Shown here one piece after another: positions 23,966-25,417 of a DNA stretch of 64,000 nt; the first letter of the stretch is position 1; each line of letters starts with the position of its first letter. This stretch comes from Candidatus Gastranaerophilales bacterium (GTDB taxonomy: Bacteria; Cyanobacteriota; Vampirovibrionia; Gastranaerophilales; Gastranaerophilaceae), in contig CALUYY010000008.1 of the NCBI GenBank assembly GCA_944325155.1, positions 1-64,000 of the forward strand, given 5' to 3'. Under the pieces are notes generated by a model that made no database searches, was not told the DNA's origin, and worked only from the letters and a program-made list of their open reading frames with translations. The position numbers and the translations under genes are program-made.

Positions 23966-25417
23966 ATGATAAGAGGGCAAAGACAAGAATTTTGCATTAA
24001 ATCGGTGCCGATTGAAGAATTGCAGGCACTTGAAAACGTTTTAAATTCCATGTCAAAAGACGGCTGGGATTTATATTCGATTTATGAAGGCGAAATTAAT
24101 TCAAAAGTTGTCTATAACGTAATTTTTGCACGTGAAATCGAAATTGAAGAAGGTGAAGATTACGAGGACATTCAAGGGTATAAAACAAAAATGGAGAAAA
24201 TGTTTTCTTCAAAAGAAGAACCTTATGAACTTTGCCTTAATTTCCAGAGAAAAATAAAAGAAAAAAGGGAAAAAATAGAAGAAATTAAAAACTTTTTAGA
24301 CGGCGCAAAAGACAACGAAAGAGATGTCTTAAACGAAGAAATCGCAAAAGAAGTCGACAGATTAAACAACTTAAAAAAACAATTAAAAAATCTTTTATCC
24401 CCGTCTAAGATGGCGCAGAATTTAGGCGAAGAAAGATTATCAATTTCTTTAAGCGAAGAAAATTATTCATTAAATGACCCGAATAACGAAAAAAATCTTC
24501 TCTCGCAGACAATAAAAGCAAGGCAGGAATTAACGAAAGAATTGGGCTATATAATCCCCAAGGTTCAATTCCTTGAAAGTTCCGAGCTGGACAGTTATGT
24601 TTTTACGATAAACGTCCATGGCGTTCCCGTTGTCAAAGGAACGGCATATCCCGATTATACGGCATTTTTTGAAGATGACCTTGATATGGATGAATATCCC
24701 GATGGCTCAATTGAAGATACCGATTTAATCACAAACCGCCCCATCGTCTGGATTAAGGAAGAATTGACGAAAAATTACTGGACAAAAGGATATCACCCGT
24801 GTGAGCTTATTGCAAGATATCTTAAATATTATTCAATTAAGCATGTCCATGAAATTTTTAACTATTCCGATATGAACAGATACATTGAAATCGTAAGTGA
24901 TAATAACCCGCTGATTATTGATACGATTTTGGGTGATTTTATCTCAATCGGAGAATTAAAATATATCTTCTGTTCTTTAATAAGAGAAAGAATAAGCGTT
25001 AAAGACGTTATTTATATTTTTGAAAAAATTAACGATTTTGCGGACGATAACTCTAAAGCGGACCTTCTTGAAAAATTAAGAATTTCAATCGCAAGACAAA
25101 TCTGCTGGTCTGTAAGCAATCAGGATAAAGTAATCGAAGCTTACGAAATATCCGATGAAATTATAAAACTGTTGGAAGAAAATGCGGTTGAGCCGGATGA
25201 AAACGAATGTATAGTAAAAATTGACGGATATAAATTTGAAGACTTTATTAAAAAAATAGAAGAATTATCTTATGAAAAAGATGTTATTCTTGTTTCGCCT
25301 TCTCATCTAAGACAGGTTATATTTGCTCTTATTTCGCAGTTATTTATGGATATACCCGTTATCAGCTATGAAGAAATTGCACCTGAATTTGAATTAAAAG
25401 TTTTAGGAAAAATTTAG
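23966..25417 (+). CDS. Soluble FlhA/SctV cytosolic-domain homologue with DUF4177-like N-terminus
   Basis: A 483-aa protein with no membrane segment. Residues 1-58 resemble DUF4177 (KSVPIEELQALENVLNSMSKDGW). Residues 85-150 are coiled coil. From about 185 it follows the cytosolic domain of FlhA/SctV: RQELTKELGYIIPKVQF, INVHGVPVVKG, PIVWIKEELT, a helical block with ISIGELKYIF and RERISVKDVI, then ISIARQI, and the end LVSPSHLRQ...PVISYEEIAPEF...LGKI. In flagella and type III systems this domain forms the nonameric ring that docks export substrates, tethered to an eight-helix gate. Here the gate is missing and no flagellar or injectisome gene is nearby. Function is unknown. It sits 78 bases before the GGDEF gene. 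Confidence 0.8.
   Translation: MIRGQRQEFCIKSVPIEELQALENVLNSMSKDGWDLYSIYEGEINSKVVYNVIFAREIEIEEGEDYEDIQGYKTKMEKMFSSKEEPYELCLNFQRKIKEKREKIEEIKNFLDGAKDNERDVLNEEIAKEVDRLNNLKKQLKNLLSPSKMAQNLGEERLSISLSEENYSLNDPNNEKNLLSQTIKARQELTKELGYIIPKVQFLESSELDSYVFTINVHGVPVVKGTAYPDYTAFFEDDLDMDEYPDGSIEDTDLITNRPIVWIKEELTKNYWTKGYHPCELIARYLKYYSIKHVHEIFNYSDMNRYIEIVSDNNPLIIDTILGDFISIGELKYIFCSLIRERISVKDVIYIFEKINDFADDNSKADLLEKLRISIARQICWSVSNQDKVIEAYEISDEIIKLLEENAVEPDENECIVKIDGYKFEDFIKKIEELSYEKDVILVSPSHLRQVIFALISQLFMDIPVISYEEIAPEFELKVLGKI

Follow-up and report, generated by a model that had tools for sequence, protein, structure and literature searches.

Known export-gate relatives

The cytoplasmic domain of FlhA (FlhA-C) is the platform on which type III export selects what leaves the cell. 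FlhX of Campylobacterota is a soluble homologue of the cytoplasmic domain of FlhB, another export-gate protein, and Buchnera is known for hook-basal bodies that carry no filament. FlhX has been listed merely as a secretion-system component (PMC9321776). Gut Melainabacteria have incomplete sets of flagellar genes, which were earlier taken to reflect the loss of functional flagella (PMC4040986); a shared flagellar gene set with two flhA genes is listed for four Melainabacteria, including the filament-less MEL.A1, in the accessible parts of a paper that also places flagellated members within the family (PMC3787301).

The gene at 23966-25417 (+) of the window (the whole 64,000-nucleotide stretch of DNA that was analysed) is an intact ORF with an ATG start and encodes a soluble FlhA-C paralogue of 483 aa. 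The protein resembles FlhA and SctV in its complete four-domain cytoplasmic fold; it differs in having no membrane domain, an unrelated N-terminus, replacements at F459 and T490, and a strongly diverged D4. By analogy, it may be compared to what FlhX is for FlhB: each copies the cytoplasmic half of an export-gate protein in soluble form and is retained beside the full-length protein, however FlhX copies FlhB rather than FlhA and has no known extra N-terminal module. The second flhA of Di Rienzi et al. 2013, ACD20_26563.5896.13G0002, is probably this soluble gene; in the accessible parts of that paper it is labelled flhA only, and neither the missing membrane half nor a second apparatus is discussed (PMC3787301).

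The soluble FlhA-C paralogue

Residues 135-475 (24368-25390, +) match the FHIPEP profile (PF00771) with E=3.9e-46 and 158 bits, against a cutoff of 29.1 bits; the match begins at profile position 321 and runs to 656 of 657. The same part of the protein is matched by the NCBIfam models for FlhA (TIGR01398; E=4.4e-44, 150.8 bits, cutoff 772.1) and SctV (TIGR01399; E=4.2e-29, 101.5 bits, cutoff 692.25), in both cases far below the equivalog level, which is expected for a half-protein. A phmmer search of the PDB recovers FlhA-C at E=1.9e-28. The AlphaFold2 model, a monomer built on an alignment of 74 family sequences, has a mean pLDDT of 82.8 and resembles FlhA-C and SctV-C over ~340 columns (CdsV, E=9.5e-21), with a TM score of 0.7-0.8 by target length; the whole D1-D4 fold is predicted, aligned from the linker to the C-terminus. 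The best conserved portion of the soluble family is D3 (about residues 300-385; 24863-25120, +), the approximate limits of which were carried over from E. coli FlhA through an alignment. No transmembrane-like segment is found, as a crude scan gives no hydrophobic 19-mer over threshold; the identical scan gives seven in the full FlhA of the same genome, and such a 19-mer is absent from 74 of 80 members of the soluble family. These comparisons bear out the description in the earlier note of a soluble FlhA/SctV ring-domain homologue from which the membrane part of FlhA is missing and whose N-terminus is foreign to FlhA. A scan for promoters and terminators gave no excess above shuffles.

The N-terminus is predicted to contain a β-α-β-β domain (residues 1-59; 23966-24142, +), joined through a disordered link to an antiparallel helical hairpin (residues 86-111 and 116-143; 24221-24394, +); this module is also conserved within the soluble family. 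The first domain is weakly DUF4177-like (PF13783; E=0.027, 15.1 bits, below the curated cutoff of 25), and 24 of 35 soluble-family N-termini match DUF4177 at E<=0.1, the best at 8.7e-4. A DUF4177-like domain with a coiled coil, as had been proposed from the sequence, thus fits the weak likeness and the predicted fold with its hairpin, but the match stays under the curated cutoff. None of the PDB fold matches of the N-terminal domain is significant, dodecins being among the best. Mimicry of FliJ by the hairpin was considered and set aside, because neither FliJ nor CdsO appears in the lists of PDB matches by fold or by sequence; weak PCRF and RraB matches in the N-terminus are taken as chance matches to a coiled coil or small domain.

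A flagellin-less export apparatus in the same genome

The source genome (1.88 Mb, 97.8% complete) carries the soluble gene on contig C8. Six type III families were searched across the whole genome, and their matches fall on contigs C2, C3, C5 and C7; the earlier statement that no flagellar or type III gene is nearby is therefore locally true, C8 being free of matches to the six families, but the genome does have a type III apparatus. The gene order on C3 is lytic transglycosylase, FliE, FliF, a protein here called X349, FliH, and an intact, full-length FlhA. C5 encodes a FliN-like protein with FliO, FliP, FliQ and FliR, FlgB and FlgC with two FlgF/G-like proteins, and FlhB, next to which lies a sigma-70 region 4 gene; FliI is on C2, and a third FlgE/F/G-like protein is on C7. 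Basal body and export gate parts of the canonical flagellum are present in this apparatus, which belongs to the class termed type B below, and FliF, FliE and the rod proteins point to a flagellar rather than an injectisome type. There is no Flagellin_N match in this genome or in eight other sampled genomes of the genus. The export apparatus is dispersed over loci L003, L141, L142, L216 and L217, on C3, C5 and C2.

X349 (L003:10687-11736, -) is a conserved operon protein in the position of FliG, and no relatives were found in Pfam, NCBIfam or PDB sequences. The sigma-70 region 4 protein (L217:6202-6882, -) is encoded directly downstream of flhB and is a candidate regulator of the apparatus. A 2008-aa, apparently coiled-coil protein (L141:12761-18787, -) has one gene between its locus and the FliN-FliO-FliP-FliQ-FliR genes.

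Two FlhA systems in the family

Across the family (gut Gastranaerophilales; 191 genomes, of which 76 are flagellin-positive and 115 flagellin-negative), full-length FHIPEP proteins split into two score classes. Type A FlhA scores about 817-885 bits, adjoins FliR and an FlhB-sized gene, and is present in 75 of the 76 flagellin-positive genomes and in none of the 115 flagellin-negative ones. Type B scores about 700-736 bits and, among the matches listed, occurs in flagellin-positive and flagellin-negative genomes; the two types are found together in flagellated genomes such as G033, G064 and G112. Different genera share the type-B operon FliE-FliF-X349-FliH-FlhA, with type-B FlhA 80-85% identical between them; identity of type A to type B is 35-39%, and type-B scores fall under the FlhA and SctV equivalog cutoffs alike. 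In flagellated members type B stands beside the true flagellum as an apparatus of its own, and it is highly conserved. It resembles the Buchnera structures in that a flagellum-type export apparatus and rod are kept without a filament; it differs in that, in this family, it is a separate system found alongside a true flagellum where members are flagellated. As a distinct system it appears to be undescribed in the accessible parts of the earlier literature on Melainabacterial flagellar genes.

Distribution and descent of the soluble protein

The soluble protein is found full-length, N-terminal module included, in 184 of the 191 family genomes, and the seven genomes without it include fragmentary ones. 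It is present irrespective of flagellin (75/76 positive and 109/115 negative genomes) and also occurs outside the family, in a single genome from a second family of the order. For another family of the class (f3), the five genomes sampled contain a related full-length FlhA and lack the soluble protein. In the tree, the soluble proteins, type B and the FlhA of f3 are joined at 100/100; soluble proteins and type B alone are joined at 93/87, which is not firm, and the exact attachment of the soluble lineage is unsure due to its long branch. The AU test rejects a grouping of the soluble proteins with type A (p-AU 0.0005), and a larger tree concurs. At the level of sequence, this shows that the soluble protein descends with type B and not with the canonical flagellar type A. 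An accessory role in the canonical flagellum, suggested by homology to FlhA and by the flagellated members of the family (PMC3787301), is highly improbable; it is largely refuted by this tree test and by the 109 of 115 genomes that have the soluble protein with neither flagellin nor type-A FlhA.

The dN/dS of the soluble gene against one genus member is about 0.06, which shows strong purifying selection on the coding sequence, although synonymous sites are nearly saturated in this comparison. The missing membrane half and the fragmentary FlhA-C copies held by some genomes of the phylum could suggest a decaying or split FlhA fragment without function; this is hardly credible for a full-length, near-universal gene with such a ratio and with its N-terminal module conserved as well, and is refuted by these features together with the tree and the intact full-length FlhA also present in the genome. 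The earlier note had likewise allowed for a split copy of a full FlhA system encoded elsewhere: a full FlhA does exist elsewhere in the genome, but the tree places the soluble gene as a distinct paralogue. Its presence in 184 of 191 genomes, its independence of flagellin and its position with type B indicate an old paralogue of the type-B lineage.

Domains retained and lost

Identity of the soluble protein to type B is 33% in D1, 36% in D3, 20% in D2 and 19% in D4; the corresponding values for the control comparison of type A with type B are 35, 33, 19 and 35%, using the domain limits of Salmonella FlhA. D1 and D3 are thus kept about as well as between the two full-length types, and D4 is the domain of the soluble protein that has drifted most relative to the control (19% vs 35%). 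Ring contacts in FlhA homologues are D3-D3, D3-D1 and linker-D1 (PMC8223533), and the chaperone dimple of FlhA is formed by D456/F459/T490 (PMC8166844). At the dimple positions type A has D or E/F/T and type B has D/Y/T; most soluble proteins, including the one encoded at 23966-25417, have D/T/R, in which the aspartate is kept, the aromatic residue is replaced by threonine and the threonine by arginine. This pattern suggests that surfaces of the ring-forming type may have been retained and that standard chaperone docking may have been lost. As D3 conservation is general in FlhA-C, its retention alone is no proof of ring docking.

The soluble protein could instead build its own membrane-free ring, an idea of the earlier note, and serve as a separate sorting platform. 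D3 and D1, which form rings in homologues (PMC8223533), are the best retained domains and the entire four-domain fold is predicted; however the AlphaFold2 model is that of a monomer, and the linker contacts E351/W354/D356 of Salmonella FlhA are unalignable in any Melainabacterial FlhA and thus uninformative on ring contacts. A free ring seems rather improbable.

Gene neighbours

The neighbours of the soluble gene are unrelated genes that vary from genus to genus, and among the loci examined it is never inside a type-III operon. A link to cyclic di-GMP had been proposed because the next gene encodes a GGDEF-HD protein; of 99 loci, just 4, from three distinct genomes, have an orthologue of this protein near the soluble gene, and among the seven other loci examined in the genus only one has it immediately next to that gene; a conserved cyclic di-GMP partner was accordingly rejected. 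Unrelated and variable neighbours would also fit recruitment to a process unconnected with type III export, but this is improbable given the descent of the soluble protein from type-B FlhA and its co-occurrence with it.

FlhA-C domains with other N-termini

FlhA-C domains are joined to other N-termini elsewhere. G013 encodes a protein (L201:3542-5323, -), separate from the soluble paralogue, in which the N-terminal domain of X349 precedes an FlhA-C domain in one chain (HMM E=3.8e-16), with two hydrophobic segments between the domains. Fusions of an HTH_17 DNA-binding domain to FlhA-C occur in G193 and G202, from another family of the phylum; one such gene of G193 (L197:3815-5056, -) is divergent from fliP-fliQ-fliR-flhB at a distance of 149 bp, and a second copy is at L198:3265-4518. 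Helical N-termini on FlhA-C are seen in G207 and G219, which have 10-12 FHIPEP matches per genome (L192-L196, L205, L206, L209, L210), many of them soluble or fragmentary FlhA-C; the copy at L206 adjoins a beta-helix domain. Genomes of family f14 have many membrane-less FlhA-C copies each. Some of the membrane-less copies in the phylum may be degenerate.

The recurrence of variable N-termini on FlhA-C in the phylum, and the regulator-typical arrangement of the divergent HTH_17-FlhA-C gene, would be consistent with a cytosolic sensor or decoy, in which FlhA-C senses the supply of export chaperones or substrates and the N-terminal module relays this to gene expression or protein stability. This is a possible but unlikely function for the soluble protein, though the likeliest after the adaptor or regulator proposed below; the protein has no DNA-binding domain match and has altered dimple residues, and the tree places the HTH fusions apart from the soluble family.

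Proposed function

The favoured reading, with about an even chance of being correct, is that the soluble protein serves as an adaptor or regulator in the cytosol and works in trans on the type-B export machinery. It would dock to, or co-assemble with, the ring of type-B FlhA through its D3 and D1 faces; the N-terminal domain and hairpin would provide a new binding surface, and the protein may thereby adjust which substrates or chaperones get to the gate. Such a role is more likely than that of a copy of the ordinary chaperone receptor. For the chaperone-binding adaptor suggested in the earlier note, the changed dimple residues argue against docking of the ordinary kind. A near-universal soluble protein in a family with a flagellin-less second apparatus is probably dedicated to regulating that apparatus or to serving it as an adaptor. 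Because the gene is in no type-III operon among the loci examined and its neighbours shift, three things tie it functionally to type B: its descent, its co-occurrence and the G013 fusion, which is in a different paralogue; of these, co-occurrence is weak evidence, since the soluble gene and type B are both nearly universal. The f3 genomes, with a related FlhA and without the soluble protein, indicate that it is not essential to such an apparatus. Of the earlier suggestion of co-option for another export or signalling job, the export part is plausible, as the soluble protein descends from a lineage of FlhA that belongs to an export apparatus lacking flagellin.

Implications for the family

The occurrence of type B matters for the interpretation of incomplete flagellar gene sets in gut Melainabacteria (PMC4040986). 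A free FlhA-C throughout a family, evolving alongside an export apparatus that lacks flagellin, is a natural experiment on which surfaces form rings and which bind cargo. More speculatively, the family may have a conserved flagellin-less secretion system, separate from flagella, in which a membrane-free FlhA-C layer, arranged as a free, stacked or mixed ring, sorts or gates what is exported; this is doubtful, but if true, a second FlhA-C layer with its own N-terminal module would be a component unknown from any flagellum or injectisome.
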